A program made the position numbers and the translations under genes. A DNA stretch of 64,000 bases, from the NCBI GenBank assembly GCA_947625055.1, contig CANQMT010000011.1, positions 1 to 64,000 of the forward strand, read 5' to 3'. The DNA comes from an uncultured Monoglobus sp. Its GTDB lineage: Bacteria; Bacillota; Clostridia; Monoglobales; Monoglobaceae. The notes beneath the pieces were generated by a model that saw only the letters and a list, made by a program, of their open reading frames with translations, ran no database searches and was not told where the DNA came from. This document shows positions 8,311 to 64,000 of the stretch, piece after piece (position 1 is the first letter of the stretch; the number at the start of each line of letters is the position of its first letter).

Positions 8311-9165
8311 CTACACAACCCACAGTCCGCCGCGGTCGGGAACCGCCGCCGCGAATTTTTCCTTTGCCTCCTCCGCGGCGCCGCGGCTGTCAAATATCCC
8401 GAATACCGCGCTGCCGCTGCCGCTCATCAGGGCGCGCTCCGCGCCCAAGGCCGAAAGCCGCTCCTTATACTCAGCGATCTCGGGGCAGGCGGGGATCGAA
8501 ACGCCCTCAAACACGTTGCCCATATTTTCAAACATTCCGCGCCTGTCGCCGCGCCGTATCGCGTCGGCCAGTCCGTCAACATTCATTCCGTCGGGCTTTT
8601 TTGAAAAATCGAGGTTTTCATAGGCCCACTTGGTGGATATGCTCTTTTCGGGCTTCGCGATAACAAAGCTCATCGCGGGCGGATCGGGCAGCGGCGTCAG
8701 GATCTCGCCTATGCCCTCGGCGAGGGCGCAGCAGTCCATAACGCAGAACGGCACGTCGGCGCCGAGCTTAAGTCCGATCTCAAGCCTCTTTTCGAGCGAG
8801 AGCGGATCTCCCAGAAGCTCGTCAAGCATGTTTATGACTCCCGCGGCGTCCGCGCTGCCGCCCGCCATTCCGGCGCCCATAGGCACCCGTTTTTCAATGA
8901 ATATATCGCAGCCGCAGTCCGCGCCGGCCGCGGCGAGCGCGGCCTCGGCGGCCCTGTAGGCTATGTTCCCGCGGCCCTTAGGCATGTCCGGGTCGCTGCC
9001 GCCGAGCATGATTTTCCCGTCGTCTCTGAGCGACACGCGAACCTCATCGCCGAGAGCCACGCGCATCATAATCATGCGCACCGTATGGTAGCCGTTTGGC
9101 AGCCGATCAAGCACGTCGATAGCCAGATTAATTTTCGCTTTGCAAAGTCTTGTTAATGAATTCAT
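8311..9165 (-). CDS. ispE: 4-diphosphocytidyl-2-C-methyl-D-erythritol kinase
   Basis: GHMP kinase: KINLAIDVLDRLPNGYHTV, PMGAGMAGGSADAA, MSGSGSAVFGIF. Confidence 0.95.
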   Translation of the reverse strand: MNSLTRLCKAKINLAIDVLDRLPNGYHTVRMIMMRVALGDEVRVSLRDDGKIMLGGSDPDMPKGRGNIAYRAAEAALAAAGADCGCDIFIEKRVPMGAGMAGGSADAAGVINMLDELLGDPLSLEKRLEIGLKLGADVPFCVMDCCALAEGIGEILTPLPDPPAMSFVIAKPEKSISTKWAYENLDFSKKPDGMNVDGLADAIRRGDRRGMFENMGNVFEGVSIPACPEIAEYKERLSALGAERALMSGSGSAVFGIFDSRGAAEEAKEKFAAAVPDRGGLWVV

Positions 9166-12502: not shown

Positions 12503-14821
12503 TTAATACTCGTTCCAGTAATCGTCGTCCTCGCGGGAATCCGCGGCGTTCTCGTTGACTATTTTATGCTTCTTCTGCATTATGTATAATATTACCGCGA
12601 ACAGTATCCCGACGCCGAAGCATGTCAGATAGAGATACACGATCGGCGGAGTCTCAAATTTCATGGTCGAAAGCGGGTTGTAAAACGTTGTGTTTGACTT
12701 ATATCCGCTCACCCCCGCGTCAAACTCGGTCGGCGCCACCTGGCACATGCGGTCAAACAGCCTGTACAGGAACTCGGCAGCCGAGGCTCGGTCAAACCGG
12801 TTCTCGGTGCTGCAAAGCGCCATGCCGTCGTTTATTATCCCCTCACGGGCGCCGAGGGCCAGAGCCGGAAGCGACTCTTTGTCCATATACTGAATATCGG
12901 GATAGTTCAGGTATACGCTGGCGTACGGGCGGTCGCTGTCATTGCCCGTATCGGGATAATAATAGCCCTTGTAATCCACCAGCAGCGCGAGGCTCTTCAC
13001 AAAACTGTCCTCAAGCCCCACGGCTGAATTGCCGTTGAACCTGAGCCCGCCCTGATCGGTGTAGAGCTGAATGTCCGCCTCGTCTATCGAGGCGACGTAA
13101 ACCGCCTGAGGGTCGGACTCGTCTATGTCGCTGTAGTCTACTCTCGCGTCGGTGTCAACCGTGAAAAGCATTCCCGCCACGGCTCTCGCAGCGTCATAGT
13201 TGGTGTACTGATCGTCCGGACGGAACCGCGTTCCGGTGGCCGCGAAATAATCCTTTGAGACGAGCTGCTTGATGTGGCTCTGCTCGGCTTCGCCAAGGCC
13301 GTCAATATCCGAGATCCTCGGCTCGTTGGTCTTGGTCTTATAGAGGCCGCCGGAGTTGGTTTTAAACTCTATAGCGCCGTTGATCGCGTCATAGATTCCT
13401 CCGATATTGAAATCCCTGCCGTCGCAGGTGTTGTAAACGCTGTCATACTCGCCGCCCGCGGGGATCGAGAAATTCACCTTGGTCGGCAGCTTGTCGATCG
13501 CGTTCCCCTGCTCGTCAAAAAAGTTGATTATATATCCGCCGCCCATTGCCGCGCCCATCTCGACGGTGAACGAGCCGTGCTTCTCAATTATCAGGTTGCA
13601 TGTGGGCTTGTCCATGATAACGCTGTGGCTGTTGTCGCCGATAAGCACCCTCATGTTGGATATTCCCATATCGTCGTCCCCCAGGCTCTTGTCAAACACG
13701 ATCCTCGGCGGCGAATTCTCGTCAAGCCCGGTGATAATAAGCTGCACCGGCCGCACAATATCCTTGTTGGGGCGGACCCCGCGCGAATCGGCCAACTGCC
13801 ACAGCTCATCCGAGGTCCGCACTGCCGCGCCCGCAGCGTCGCGAACGCTGTCGGCCGTGATCGTGACGGTGTTGCCCTCGGCCTTCAGCTCGGTTTTTGA
13901 ATTTCTAAGGCAGGCCGCCGTGATATAGGCCGCGATGTCATTGACCGCCGGGCCGTTCGGGGAATTGCCGTCCGATCCGCTCAGGATCTCGGCGAGATAA
14001 TTCTTATATTCCTCGATCGTGGTATATTCTTTTGTTTTCGCATAGTCTATCTCAATGTTTGAGGCGATTTCCGTTCCGCCCTCCGCGTCCTCCAAAAAGC
14101 CCATTTTGATTATGCTGTCGTCAAGCGCAGACACCGTGCCGATCTCCGTCGCCGCGTAGCCGCACGAGGTCCCGGCCTTTTTAAGCTTTGCGTAATAAAG
14201 CGAGCCGTTGTGCATGCCGCTTGCCGACTCAAGATATTCGGGAATGTAATGCACGATATACATGCCGTCGTCAAACTCCGCAAAATACTGTATCTTGCAG
14301 CTTTCGGGCGAGCGCGTCCACATTGTTCCGCCCGGATCCTGCTGCGGCGGATGATAGTTTCCGTCGCTGTGGTCGATATAATACTCATCCGCGACCGCAG
14401 TAACCGCGCCCGGTGTTGTGTCAACGTCAAAGGTATTTTTTACGCATCTGCGCAGCGTCTCGGGCGTGACGAGCTTGGTGTCTCCGTATATCGGAGCGTT
14501 CGGATTGAGCCTGTCAGTCTTGCTGTAGGCCAGAAACTGCCACCAGATGATCTCCGACATTTTATCGCTCCAGTTATTCGGATCAAGCGTCAGCTTGCCG
14601 CCGTTATCGCTCTCAAACTCGGTGGTATAGCACGCGCCGAATCGGCAAAGATAGTCCGAGAGCGCCGTCTTCTGCTCGATGCTCATTGTTCTTCCGGCGT
14701 TTTGATATTTTTTTGCATTCTCATCCGCGGCTCCGTTTTCGGCGCATGCCGGAATTGACGGCAGAGCCGCCGCGATCGCCAATATTATGATGATCAGATT
14801 GGTGATTTTTTTCAAAAACAT
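12503..14821 (-). CDS. large exported protein with S-layer-homology-like repeats and C-terminal TM
   Basis: signal peptide; SLH-like ALALGAREGIINDGMALCSTENRFDRASAAEFLYRLFDRM; TM near C-terminus. Confidence 0.65.
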   Translation of the reverse strand: MFLKKITNLIIIILAIAAALPSIPACAENGAADENAKKYQNAGRTMSIEQKTALSDYLCRFGACYTTEFESDNGGKLTLDPNNWSDKMSEIIWWQFLAYSKTDRLNPNAPIYGDTKLVTPETLRRCVKNTFDVDTTPGAVTAVADEYYIDHSDGNYHPPQQDPGGTMWTRSPESCKIQYFAEFDDGMYIVHYIPEYLESASGMHNGSLYYAKLKKAGTSCGYAATEIGTVSALDDSIIKMGFLEDAEGGTEIASNIEIDYAKTKEYTTIEEYKNYLAEILSGSDGNSPNGPAVNDIAAYITAACLRNSKTELKAEGNTVTITADSVRDAAGAAVRTSDELWQLADSRGVRPNKDIVRPVQLIITGLDENSPPRIVFDKSLGDDDMGISNMRVLIGDNSHSVIMDKPTCNLIIEKHGSFTVEMGAAMGGGYIINFFDEQGNAIDKLPTKVNFSIPAGGEYDSVYNTCDGRDFNIGGIYDAINGAIEFKTNSGGLYKTKTNEPRISDIDGLGEAEQSHIKQLVSKDYFAATGTRFRPDDQYTNYDAARAVAGMLFTVDTDARVDYSDIDESDPQAVYVASIDEADIQLYTDQGGLRFNGNSAVGLEDSFVKSLALLVDYKGYYYPDTGNDSDRPYASVYLNYPDIQYMDKESLPALALGAREGIINDGMALCSTENRFDRASAAEFLYRLFDRMCQVAPTEFDAGVSGYKSNTTFYNPLSTMKFETPPIVYLYLTCFGVGILFAVILYIMQKKHKIVNENAADSREDDDYWNEY

Positions 14822-54034: not shown

Positions 54035-54505
54035 TTAAAATTTTTCTTCCACTTCCGCAATATACATTCTGTGCGGCGGCTCGGCCGCATACGCGCTTGC
54101 GACAACCTCCGGCGGCATATTCGAGGTGTCGAGGTCTTGGTGATATATCTTTTTGCAAACAAACGTCGTGTGCGCCTCGTTGAACGCCACGCCGTTATTT
54201 ACTGCCTTCGGAGTGATTTTCGTAAGCGAGAGCTTGTCGCCGTCTCTGCCGGATTTCGTGCCGAGCGTTAGCAAGTCCGCGCGGTATTCCTCCGGGAAAA
54301 AGCTCAAAGTAAACCGGTCGTTATTTTCGATAAACCAGTATGTGTAACGAATAGGCTTAACGTAAACCGTGACATCAGGCTTGCCCCAAAGTGTGCCCAT
54401 GCCGCCCCAGCTTATCGTCATGGTGTTGAAGTTATCAATGCTTCCCGCCGTCAAAAGCGCCCATTCCTTGTCAAACGTACCGAATATATCTGTTTTGAAA
54501 TTCAT
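54035..54505 (-). CDS. flavin reductase-like domain protein
   Basis: FDKEWALLTAGSIDNFNTMTISWGGMGTLWGKPDVTVYVKPIRYTYWFIE. Confidence 0.88.
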   Translation of the reverse strand: MNFKTDIFGTFDKEWALLTAGSIDNFNTMTISWGGMGTLWGKPDVTVYVKPIRYTYWFIENNDRFTLSFFPEEYRADLLTLGTKSGRDGDKLSLTKITPKAVNNGVAFNEAHTTFVCKKIYHQDLDTSNMPPEVVASAYAAEPPHRMYIAEVEEKF

Positions 54506-55199: not shown

Positions 55200-55847
55200 T
55201 TATTTACCTGCGATTCTCTTGCCCATTTCATACGCGCGGTTTAAATCGATCGGGAACTGCTTATCGCGCTGCTCCGCCTTATGCTTCTCGTCAAACATTC
55301 CCGCGTAATATTTTGAATAATCGGTAAACTGATATGTATCGCAGGAGTAAAGCGTCTCGCAACTGCCGAGGAACATTCCGAGCATTTTGCCGTAGCCCTC
55401 GAAGCGCGACAGAAACGGACTCTTTTGCAGATTTTCCTCGGATATGTTCATCGTCATAATAAGTCCGCATTCCTTCTTTTTCTTTAGCAGCTTCGCGCCG
55501 TCGTTTTCATAGTGCATGGTCGGGAAAAACAGTCTGTTAAGAAACGCGATCGTCTCTCCCGTCAGGTTTCCGTAGTATATCGGCGAGCCGATAATAAGCC
55601 CGTCCGCGTCCATTATTTTTTCATAAACCGGTTTCGCATCGTCATTAAAAGCACATATTCCGTCGGTCGTATTTCCGCGCAGCTTGCAGGCAAAGCAGCT
55701 TCGGCAATCCTTGAAATCGAGGTCAAATAAATGGATAAGCTCCGTTTGAGCGCCAGTTTCCATCGCGCCGCGCTCCGCTTCCGCGAGCAGCTTATGCGTG
55801 TTCCAGTTTTTTCGCGGGCTTCCGTTAATGAGTATTACTTTTTTCAT
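55200..55847 (-). CDS. NADPH-dependent FMN reductase / flavodoxin family protein
   Basis: VILINGSPRKNWNTHKLLAEAERGA, CRSCFACK, DGLIIGSPIYYGNLTG. Confidence 0.92.
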   Translation of the reverse strand: MKKVILINGSPRKNWNTHKLLAEAERGAMETGAQTELIHLFDLDFKDCRSCFACKLRGNTTDGICAFNDDAKPVYEKIMDADGLIIGSPIYYGNLTGETIAFLNRLFFPTMHYENDGAKLLKKKKECGLIMTMNISEENLQKSPFLSRFEGYGKMLGMFLGSCETLYSCDTYQFTDYSKYYAGMFDEKHKAEQRDKQFPIDLNRAYEMGKRIAGK

Positions 55848-60374: not shown

Positions 60375-60423
60375 AACACGGCGCATAAACCGTGTTGACA
60401 TTTTGACGCGACTGCGATATAAT
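60375..60423 (+). promoter_or_regulatory. promoter of the mini-CRISPR (TTGACA 60395-60400, 17-nt spacer, TATAAT 60418-60423) with overlapping inverted repeat
   Basis: AACACGG-N8-CCGTGTT at 60375-60396 overlaps the -35. Confidence 0.85.
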
Positions 60424-60448
60424 ATAATTGTTCCTTTTTAAAGGATCA

Positions 60449-60538
60449 GCCGCACTTCAAAAATAGTGCGTGAGTTGAAATTTTAGAAATTATTATGTTG
60501 TTGTCGCGTCTCCGTAAAGGGGACGCGTGAGTTTTTAT
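60449..60538 (+). CRISPR. degenerate mini-CRISPR (psi-repeat / 21-nt spacer / psi-repeat), putative Cas-regulating crRNA-like RNA
   Basis: psiR1 GCCGCACTTCAAAAATAGTGCGTGAGTTGAAAT (60449-60481), spacer TTTAGAAATTATTATGTTGTT (60482-60502), psiR2 GTCGCGTCTCCGTAAAGGGGACGCGTGAGTTTTTAT (60503-60538). Confidence 0.8.
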
Positions 60539-60612
60539 TTCACGTTATTTATCAAAAAAACAGCCCTGCGGAAAATAAAAAGCGGAATAACAAAAAATTT
60601 TTAAAAAAAGAC

Positions 60613-60641
60613 TTGACATAATATAACATCTATGCTATTAT
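60613..60641 (+). promoter_or_regulatory. cas operon promoter TTGACA-17-TATTAT
   Basis: read directly, 48 nt upstream of cas3 ATG. Confidence 0.85.
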
Positions 60642-60654
60642 CAATTTACACGTT

Positions 60655-60674
60655 ACATATTAATTTCTAAAGAG
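60655..60674 (-). promoter_or_regulatory. putative self-target of the mini-CRISPR spacer in the cas3 5' leader, with CTC PAM
   Basis: minus strand CTC-TTTAGAAATTAATATGT vs spacer TTTAGAAATTATTATGT (16/17). Confidence 0.8.
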
Positions 60675-60688
60675 GTGATAAACAAACA

Positions 60689-62866
60689 ATGTCTGAAAAT
60701 TCAAATAACTACATAGCTCACACATCGGATGACGGCAGGGTGCAGAGCGTCAAGGAACATCTTGCGCAAACGGCCAAGCTGTGCCGCGACAACGCTTTGC
60801 CTGAATTTAAGGACCTCGCAGGGTGCTGCGGTCTGTATCACGACTTGGGAAAGTATTCGCCCGAGTTTCAGAAATATATTCGAGGCTCGGGCCAAAAGGT
60901 TGAGCACGCGCGTTTCGGCGCGTCCCGCATTATCAATAACTGCAAAGCATCATATGCCGCTATGCTTGCCTATTGCATTTGCGGTCACCACGCGGGACTG
61001 CCGGACGGCGGCGTCAGGAACGACAATCCCGAGCAGTCAACGCTAAACGGCATGCTTAAAAGGGAGCCGTATGACTGCTCCGGATTTGATAAAGAGATCG
61101 GCGACCGGTTCCCGGATGATCCTTTGTTTGAAAAATTAAAAAATTTGCCGGATAATAAAGAGCAGATCGAGGTTTATTCGTTCTTTACGAGATATCTTTA
61201 CTCATGCCTCACCGACGCCGACTTTATAGACACGGAACGGTTCTGCGCTCCCGACGCCAAGCGCGGCCTTGACGGTGATATTATCGCCGCTTATAAAATG
61301 GTCTGCGAAAAGCTTGACGGATTTAAATGCGAAACCGAGCTGCAAAAGGCGCGGAGCGTCATTCAGGCTCAGGCCTATGACTGCGCGGAGAACAAGGACG
61401 CCGATATATACATGCTCGACATGCCCACCGGCAGCGGAAAAACCTTGTGCAGCATAAAAGCGGCTCTGCGGCTGGCGATCAAAAACGACAAAAAGAGAAT
61501 AATTTACATTATGCCGTACACAAGCATAATCGAGCAGACGGCGGAAGTCTTTGAAGACATATTCGGAAACTCGCTGCTGGTGTTGCAGCACCATTCAAAT
61601 TATGATTTTGACGATCCCGAGAAGGAATCCGACGAGAGCGGAACAACAAGCGAAAAACTTAAAAAGACCTGCGAAAACTATGACGCGCCTTTGATAATAA
61701 CCACCAACGTGCAGTTTTTCGAGTCGCTCTATCACAACAAAAGCAGCAGGCTCAGAAAGCTGCATAACCTCGCCGAAAGCGTGCTGGTGTTTGACGAGAT
61801 ACACGCCCTGCCCGCGGAATATATCCAGCCGTGCCTGCGCGGGATAGGATACATCACAAAATATCTTAACTCAACTGCTATCCTTATGTCCGCTACAATG
61901 CCCGACTACACGCGATATGCCGAAAAATATATCCCGCAAAGCACAATTGAATACGCGGTTAAGGACAAGAGCCTTTTCGGAATTTTTGATAAATGCAAAT
62001 ATCAATATATCGGGCGAAACGATTTAGGCTCCATAGCTGAAAAAGCACTCGGGCAGGAAAACGCGCTGGTGATAGTCAACAAAAAAAGCACAGCGAGAGA
62101 ACTCTACAACATATGCAAAAATTCGGCCGATCACAAGGTATACCATTTATCAACATACATGACGCCCATAGATAGGTCGGATACCATAAGCAGAATACGA
62201 GCGAGCCTTGATAACGGAACAAAGACTGTCGTGATATCGACCTCGCTTATTGAGGCTGGCGTGGATCTGGATTTCAAATCGGTATTCCGCGAGATCGCGG
62301 GGCTTGACAGTATAGTTCAGGCAGGGGGCCGCTGCAACCGCGAAGGCAGAATGAGCTTCGGAAACGTGTTTGTGTTTGAGCTTGGGTCTTTGCACAGAGA
62401 GATCGCGGTCAAAGCAAATATAACAAGAAAGCTTTTTGAGGAATTCGAAAATATTTCTTCCCAAGAGGCGGTGCAGGAATATTACGACAGAATATTCGCC
62501 GTTTCGGATGACGAGATCGAAACCAACTCAATAACCGAGCTGATGGGCGGGGATATGAGAGTCACAGGAATACCTTTCAGGTCTTACGCGCAAAGATTTA
62601 AGTTTATCGAAAAAGAAGCTTTAGGAATAGTTATCCCGTGTGAGGAAAACGCCGAGCTTATAGAGTCGTTAAAATACGGCGCGCGTTCGGCCATGAGAAA
62701 GCTGCAGCGATACTGCGCCTCGGTCAACAAATATGAATTTGATGATATGATCGAGAGCGGAACAGTGGAAAATTTATTCGGCAATGTGTATATGTTGTCC
62801 GTTCCCGATTATTACAGTAAGGAGACCGGACTTGATATAAAAAAAGAATTTAATTTAATCATATAA
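60689..62866 (+). CDS. cas3: CRISPR-associated helicase/nuclease Cas3 (HD-DEXH), type I-C
   Basis: YHDLGKYS HD motif, CGHHAG, MPTGSGKTLCSIKAAL, VLVFDEIHALP, MSATMP, IVQAGGRCNREG. Confidence 0.97.
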   Translation: MSENSNNYIAHTSDDGRVQSVKEHLAQTAKLCRDNALPEFKDLAGCCGLYHDLGKYSPEFQKYIRGSGQKVEHARFGASRIINNCKASYAAMLAYCICGHHAGLPDGGVRNDNPEQSTLNGMLKREPYDCSGFDKEIGDRFPDDPLFEKLKNLPDNKEQIEVYSFFTRYLYSCLTDADFIDTERFCAPDAKRGLDGDIIAAYKMVCEKLDGFKCETELQKARSVIQAQAYDCAENKDADIYMLDMPTGSGKTLCSIKAALRLAIKNDKKRIIYIMPYTSIIEQTAEVFEDIFGNSLLVLQHHSNYDFDDPEKESDESGTTSEKLKKTCENYDAPLIITTNVQFFESLYHNKSSRLRKLHNLAESVLVFDEIHALPAEYIQPCLRGIGYITKYLNSTAILMSATMPDYTRYAEKYIPQSTIEYAVKDKSLFGIFDKCKYQYIGRNDLGSIAEKALGQENALVIVNKKSTARELYNICKNSADHKVYHLSTYMTPIDRSDTISRIRASLDNGTKTVVISTSLIEAGVDLDFKSVFREIAGLDSIVQAGGRCNREGRMSFGNVFVFELGSLHREIAVKANITRKLFEEFENISSQEAVQEYYDRIFAVSDDEIETNSITELMGGDMRVTGIPFRSYAQRFKFIEKEALGIVIPCEENAELIESLKYGARSAMRKLQRYCASVNKYEFDDMIESGTVENLFGNVYMLSVPDYYSKETGLDIKKEFNLII

Positions 62867-62877
62867 AGGAGGACGAT

Positions 62878-63600
62878 ATGGGATACGGTTTTAAAATTAT
62901 GGTAAGCGGCGATTACGCGTGTTTTACGCGGCCGGAGATGAAAACCGAAAGGGTAAGCTATGACGTGCCAACGCCCGGAGCGCTGGAGGGGCTTATTAAA
63001 AGCATCTATTGGAAGCCCGCGCTGCGGATCGTGATAGACAAGATCATCGTCTTCAATCCTATTAAGTTTGTCAATATTCGCCGCAACGAGGTTAAAGACA
63101 AGGTGAGCTTATCGAATGTGAAAAAGCAGATGAAGGACGGCAAGCCGCGAGCGGAGATCTATACCAAGGAAAGCATAAGTCAACGCGGCAGCATGATCCT
63201 TAAAGACGTTCTGTACGGCGTCGAGTTTCATTTTGAGCTCACCGGGATCAGGAGCGAGCATGACGACGAAAGCGAGGAAAAGCATTATAACATCATGCTC
63301 CGCAGGTTGAAAAAGGGGCAGCATTTCAGACAGCCGGTTTTGGGCTGCAGCGAGTTCCCGACAAAAAAGATCGAGCTTGTGGATGAGTTCCCGACAGATC
63401 GGGTATCTGATGAGCTAAAGGGTGACACCGATCTCGGCTTTATGCTGTATCACATGAAATTCCGCGACGGCGGCATTCCGAAATACAACGATTGGGAGAC
63501 GCGCAAGTTTTCTGACAAGGCCGATGCGGTGTTCTACCGCCCGCACATGATCGACGGAGTGATAGACGTCGCGAAATACAAGGAGATGATGAAATGCTGA
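62878..63600 (+). CDS. cas5c: type I-C Cas5 (Cas5c/Cas5d)
   Basis: YACFTRPEMKTERVSYDVPTPGALEGLIKSIYWKPALRIVIDKIIVFNPIKFVNIRRNEV. Confidence 0.95.
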   Translation: MGYGFKIMVSGDYACFTRPEMKTERVSYDVPTPGALEGLIKSIYWKPALRIVIDKIIVFNPIKFVNIRRNEVKDKVSLSNVKKQMKDGKPRAEIYTKESISQRGSMILKDVLYGVEFHFELTGIRSEHDDESEEKHYNIMLRRLKKGQHFRQPVLGCSEFPTKKIELVDEFPTDRVSDELKGDTDLGFMLYHMKFRDGGIPKYNDWETRKFSDKADAVFYRPHMIDGVIDVAKYKEMMKC

Positions 63601-64000
63601 TAAGCGCGCTTAATGATTATTATGATATTTTAGCCGAGGCGGGAGAGGTTGCGCAGCCCGGAACTTCATCGCAAAAGATCACTCATATGATCATGCTGAG
63701 GCTCGACGGAACAATAAGCGATATTATAGACGTGCGCAAAGAGGGACAGCCTGACAAAAACGGCAAGACAAGACTTGAACCGATCGAGGCCGTTTTGCCC
63801 GAGCGGACCCAAAAGCCCGGGATCGACGCGAACATAATAGAGCATCGCCCGCTGTATATTTTCGGCTTGAATTATGACAAGCAGACAAACACATTCACCC
63901 CCGAGGACAGGACCGATAAGGCGAAAAAATCGCACAACTGCTTTGCCGATGCTAACCTTAAATTCACCGAGGGGATGACGTCCGGCATTGTTACGGCATA
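63594..64000 (+). CDS. cas8c: type I-C Cas8c (Csd1), N-terminal part, truncated by window end
   Basis: MLISALNDYYDILAEAGEVAQPGTSSQKITHMIMLRLDGTISDIIDVR...KKSHNCFADANLKF; overlaps cas5c stop. Confidence 0.9.
   Translation, partial: MLISALNDYYDILAEAGEVAQPGTSSQKITHMIMLRLDGTISDIIDVRKEGQPDKNGKTRLEPIEAVLPERTQKPGIDANIIEHRPLYIFGLNYDKQTNTFTPEDRTDKAKKSHNCFADANLKFTEGMTSGIVTA

Follow-up and report, generated by a model that had tools for sequence, protein, structure and literature searches.

A candidate CreR-type guide RNA upstream of the type I-C cas operon in a Monoglobus-group bacterium

In a 64,000-nucleotide stretch of DNA (the window) from a Monoglobus-group (Clostridia) gut bacterium with a 2.2-Mb genome, we found a mini-array of two degenerate CRISPR repeats just ahead of cas3, whose short guide matches the leader of the type I-C cas operon that follows. 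We consider the element most likely to encode a CreR-type RNA that guides I-C Cascade to repress the cas3-cas2 operon, a reading to which we assign a probability of about 0.88 on the strength of sequence comparison.

The host system, the mini-array, and its target

The contig's named relatives, MAGs of uncultured Monoglobus and Clostridia, come from Lapin samples. The contig itself runs 10 kb beyond the window and carries cas3, cas5c, cas8c, cas7, cas4, cas1, and cas2 in that order, each recognized by an NCBIfam model. The operon opens with cas3 (60689..62866, plus strand; TIGR01587/TIGR01596), followed by cas5c, which encodes the type I-C repeat-processing nuclease (62878..63600, plus strand; TIGR01876), and by cas8c, which is cut by the window edge (63594..64000, plus strand; contig 63594-65387 in full). 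The models for cas8c and the genes downstream of it, which lie beyond the window, were TIGR01863, TIGR02589, TIGR00372, TIGR03640, and TIGR01573. After cas2, just past the window's right edge, comes an array of 20 repeats (contig 68364-69689) with 34-37 nt spacers; its repeat, GGTCACGCCTCGCAAGAGGCGTGTGAGTTGAAAC, is near-identical in 17 of the 20 copies, with three variants at the trailer end, and consists of a stem followed by the 11-nt handle TGAGTTGAAAC. The mini-array's own contig therefore holds a complete I-C system, with the full gene set and a 32-34 nt repeat array. The same genome has a second ordinary array of at least eight repeats (G000:C22, ~12900-13460; L128), which has the short leader stretch TATACAATATATAG in common with the main array. 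On each side of the cas locus lie a flavin-reductase-like gene and a flavodoxin-like gene (window 54035-54505 and 55200-55847; L002 11889-12251 and 12364-13071). The copies are near-identical, which gives the impression of a region duplicated around the locus.

The mini-array has its own promoter, TTGACA-17-TATAAT (60395..60423, plus strand), which agrees with the consensus at 12 of 12 positions and is kept in relatives. The first degenerate I-C repeat, psiR1 (60449..60481, plus strand), folds into a 6-bp stem (CGCACT/AGTGCG) and ends in the 11-nt handle TGAGTTGAAAT (60471-60481), which is identical to the native handle save for the last base. It is followed by the guide, or psi-spacer (60482..60502, plus strand), which is AT-rich, would form 17 A/T-rich pairs with its target, and measures 21 nt versus the 34-37 nt of real spacers. 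The second repeat, psiR2 (60503..60538, plus strand), has a 9-bp stem (60505-60527) and scored as terminator-like; since its handle has decayed to TGAGTTTTTAT, a decay common to other members of the family, only one guide RNA is expected. These elements, together with the target and its CTC, all lie where the original prediction had placed them, and the comparison that it called for with the true repeat past the window edge confirmed the resemblance, as the real repeat has the same GTGAGTTGAAA handle. Across seven distinct sequences, 95% of the cells in the psiR1 and psiR2 stems are paired and four pairs have changed on both sides, while sliding the stem partners as a control lowers pairing to 23-80%; for psiR1, both-sided changes affect three of the six pairs in relatives. 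The element thus has two hallmarks by which we recognize a CreR RNA: degenerate cognate repeats that are linked to the cas operon outside the array, and a cognate crRNA handle that has been kept, with one substitution in G007.

The guide is directed at the leader of cas3, whose promoter (TTGACA-17-TATTAT, 60613..60641, plus strand; 11 of 12 consensus positions) is kept in seven of eight relatives and lost in G003. The target (60655..60671, minus strand) falls between the predicted start site and the cas3 start codon, close to the latter, and abuts the Shine-Dalgarno sequence AGAGGTG; the adjoining CTC (60672..60674, minus strand) overlaps this sequence. Identity is 16/17, with guide positions 1-11 and 13-17 matched and position 12 mismatched exactly as predicted, and we found that position 18 is mismatched likewise. 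Leaving aside every sixth guide base, which type I Cascade flips out, all 15 positions among the first 17 match. Shuffling the 150-nt leader 20,000 times at the dinucleotide level never gave 15/15; the match is not due to chance. When the 2.2-Mb genome was scanned for the PAM and target pattern at up to two mismatches, no site besides the cas3 leader was found.

TTC is the common I-C PAM, and the original prediction had regarded CTC as a tolerated variant of this TTC/YYC type. To find the native PAM, we searched the array spacers of G000, G007, G010, and G012 against the family genomes and obtained 13 distinct phage-like protospacers in contigs of G006, G009, and G013, preceded immediately 5' by CTC (seven) or CTT (six). 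Since this holds for 13/13 protospacers, the CTC at the window target is the lineage's own PAM; that it is functional for I-C stands, but its description as a tolerated variant does not. At the target itself, CTC is present in seven members and TTC in L014. CTN and CTT are on record as I-C PAMs in other Clostridia (PMC8482600). A guide with limited complementarity to a cas leader, next to a functional PAM, is a further CreR hallmark.

Guide and target in related genomes

In Cas3 searches, an intact mini-array ahead of cas3 turned up in seven more genomes (G011, G010, G008, G012, G007, G002, and, from the genome collection, L014; Cas3 identity 71-93%), and a decayed copy in G003. G000, G011, and G012 have one guide and one target in common, which leaves six distinct guide/target pairs, the window's included. 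The original prediction had proposed this comparison, and in the homologous regions upstream of cas3 the guide does match the leader and varies in step with its target. Eight of the 15 non-flipped positions in the first 18 differ between species, and at seven of these both sides have changed; 89 of 90 cells at non-flipped positions are paired. Each guide taken with its own target is the best of 720 permutations, beating the other 719 (1/720). Between G008 and G010, positions 7, 8, and 14, in the seed or middle of the guide, have changed and are matched on both sides. Mismatches, on the other hand, fall almost entirely at positions 6 (5), 12 (4), and 18 (6), with 15 of 16 at these three and the remaining one at 15, although these counts are inflated and not fully independent because the eight intact loci, mostly MAGs, are related. 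Since Cascade flips every sixth base, this is the pattern expected if a type I Cascade reads the match, and together with the co-variation it indicates that the match has been maintained by selection, another mark by which we recognize a CreR RNA.

We checked the I-C loci that come next in Cas3 identity (59% at most) and found no such element in them, and a covariance-model search of the order and class gave strong matches (94-109 bits) only at cas3-linked elements. Those of the weaker matches that we inspected were ordinary arrays or array pieces.

In L014, the mini-array is inverted with its own TTGACA-17-TATAAT on that strand, and the target covers the cas3 -10 box and lies mostly outside the cas3 mRNA. 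Its psiR1 stem is weak, with two outer pairs broken, so 5' processing in L014 is uncertain. Taken together, the inversion and the target over the -10 box mean that the relation kept is that of guide to target DNA, rather than a dyad or an antisense match to mRNA. This bears on the possibility that the guide acts as a conventional antisense sRNA, pairing with the 5'-UTR of the cas3 mRNA by the Shine-Dalgarno sequence and blocking translation without Cascade. The guide is antisense to the cas3 mRNA, and the window target is suitably placed, downstream of the predicted start site; however, RNA-RNA pairing does not predict mismatches at every sixth position, the native CRISPR handle and native PAM are retained, and the L014 target is for the most part not in the mRNA at all. 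We consider such an sRNA unlikely, and in its plain antisense form it is ruled out by the flip-position pattern and L014.

G003 (L129/L010; G003:C15, upstream of cas3) no longer has the cas3 promoter or the target, both lost to a deletion, and its psiR1 is missing the handle and the seed; judging from these sequences, regulator and target decayed jointly. The G009 assembly, which is 96% complete, contains no cas3. There (L100; G009:C121, minus strand, ~1378-1610), the creR promoter and psiR1 run straight into a 34-nt array spacer and a near-native repeat, an apparent scar that could have arisen if psiR1 had recombined with an array repeat and the cas operon had been deleted in the process.

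It could be argued that the intact elements too are decayed array remnants, or inverted repeats, without a present function, given the short guide and the two degenerate repeats. We regard this as very unlikely, because under neutral decay 89 of 90 positions would not have stayed paired, nor would the element have survived the L014 inversion, and because compensated changes in guide and target, an intact consensus promoter, a conserved handle, and preserved stems all speak against it. We hold it to be equally improbable that the RNA serves as a CreA-like antitoxin guide or as an anti-CRISPR solitary repeat (Racr) instead of a cas regulator. The architecture is that of CreA, and Racrs exist for I-C (PMC10651486), but the cas3 leader is the only genomic target within two mismatches, and a CreA guide for a toxin was rejected on this ground. 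At a cutoff of at least 80 aa, the interval between mini-array and cas3 is free of ORFs, and thus of a candidate of that length for the adjacent toxin gene of a CreTA module, in which the toxin promoter is the target. Racrs, for their part, are phage- or plasmid-borne solitary repeats without guide function, whereas the mini-array sits in a host cas locus and has a conserved guide; four pattern scans of viral contigs were all empty, without a relative of it. A DNA dyad or operator is ruled out, as the L014 inversion turns the inverted repeat into a direct one.

Proposed mechanism and relation to known systems

If the element is a CreR-type RNA, a short psiR1-guide-psiR2 transcript would be made from the mini-array's own promoter, Cas5c would cut it at the base of the psiR1 stem to leave UGAGUUGAAAU as the 5' end, and the processed RNA would be loaded into I-C Cascade. 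Cascade would then bind the cas3 leader beside the native CTC PAM and form a partial R-loop of ~17 positions with flipped bases at 6, 12, and 18. Since this R-loop is short, Cas3 would probably not be licensed to cut, and bound Cascade would instead block transcription of cas3-cas5-cas8-cas7-cas4-cas1-cas2. More free Cascade would mean stronger repression, that is, negative feedback, while abundant crRNAs or anti-CRISPRs occupying Cascade would relieve it, as expected from work on CreR in other subtypes (PMC13131331, PMC12737573).

CreR denotes cas-regulating RNA (Liu 2023, as cited in PMC13131331, PMC12737573, and PMC12948488), and CreR autorepression has been reported experimentally for I-B, I-E, and V-A (PMC13131331). 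Our element resembles these in being a degenerate mini-CRISPR near a cas operon, with a guide that matches the cas promoter or leader in part and Cascade-guided autorepression as the expected outcome. Unlike them, it belongs to type I-C and would depend on Cas5c instead of Cas6 for processing, and it combines a 21-nt guide, a CTC PAM, and one inverted member. In CreTA, degenerate repeats in the same psiR1-guide-psiR2 order direct Cascade to a promoter, but that of a toxin rather than the cas operon; in haloarchaeal CreA it is psiR1 that is more diverged, (PMC9458426), whereas in the mini-array described here only psiR1 still has its handle. Racrs, including RacrIC1, are phage-borne solitary repeats that inhibit immunity and are similar in that a repeat-mimic RNA engages I-C Cas proteins; unlike the Monoglobus host element, they lack a conserved guide (PMC10651486). 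A natural single-guide RNA of Cas9 is cited as autorepressing cas expression (Workman 2021, in PMC10651486), with relief by anti-CRISPRs (Workman 2024, in PMC13131331); as so cited, it is likewise a natural guide that autorepresses cas expression, but in a type II, single-effector system with an unrelated RNA.

The original prediction knew of no description of such regulation in this lineage, which holds for subtype I-C but not in general, given the cases in other subtypes. We sought an I-C CreR case in literature other than Liu 2023 and Shmakov 2023 and found none. Shmakov 2023 reportedly describes isolated repeats and mini-arrays, mainly from type I systems, whose guides are directed against cas promoters, and the mini-array is like these crRNA-like elements, as they are so described, in having a guide against the cas promoter region. 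Since that survey covered type I broadly, novelty at the subtype level is provisional. The finding would extend RNA-guided cas autorepression to a common subtype that uses Cas5c as its processor. The species comparison is unusually clean, and paired guide/target evolution with free positions 6, 12, and 18 provides a natural readout of Cascade R-loop geometry; the locus also supplies a PAM (CTC/CTT), a native single-site target, and natural variants for studying I-C feedback and anti-CRISPR sensing.

Single-repeat candidates in other I-C loci

We scanned 94 I-C leaders from the family, class, and phylum blind, anchoring on the handle and tolerating flipped positions. This returned six clade members and two others; in the control, 23,970 mismatched guide-leader pairs gave one match. 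A relaxed scan added one more clade member and one more candidate at ~0.27 expected chance matches. The three candidates come from distant Bacillota I-C loci (L050/G303, G303:C14 ~8360-8420; L189/G654, G654:C102; L192/G562, G562:C44), and each has, upstream of cas3, a single degenerate I-C repeat, a ~20-nt guide, and a terminator-like hairpin, which follows 2% of comparable sites. Their guides are directed at sites beside or within the cas3 promoter region, with mismatches within the first 17 positions at 6/12/17 (L050), 6/10/12 (L189), and 8/12 (L192). The one close relative of the G303 candidate, G831 (Cas3 93% identical), has a rearranged upstream region with no such element. We treat these three units as leads.

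Altogether, we see about even odds that I-C, which is without Cas6, has its own CreR-type autoregulation in more than one lineage, in a two-repeat form here and in a single-repeat form (hairpin-handle-guide-terminator) near the cas3 promoter in G303, G654, and G562, with the Monoglobus-clade record showing every sixth guide base free of selection in vivo.

At a separate locus, L114 (G226:C377), three tandem units combine CRISPR repeat pieces with a small ORF, which is hydrophobic in at least two of them (MENILEYTMIIIVLLLLKEILKYIKK). A guide match to the G226 pieces was sought nearby and none was found; these units are possibly toxin-linked arrays.
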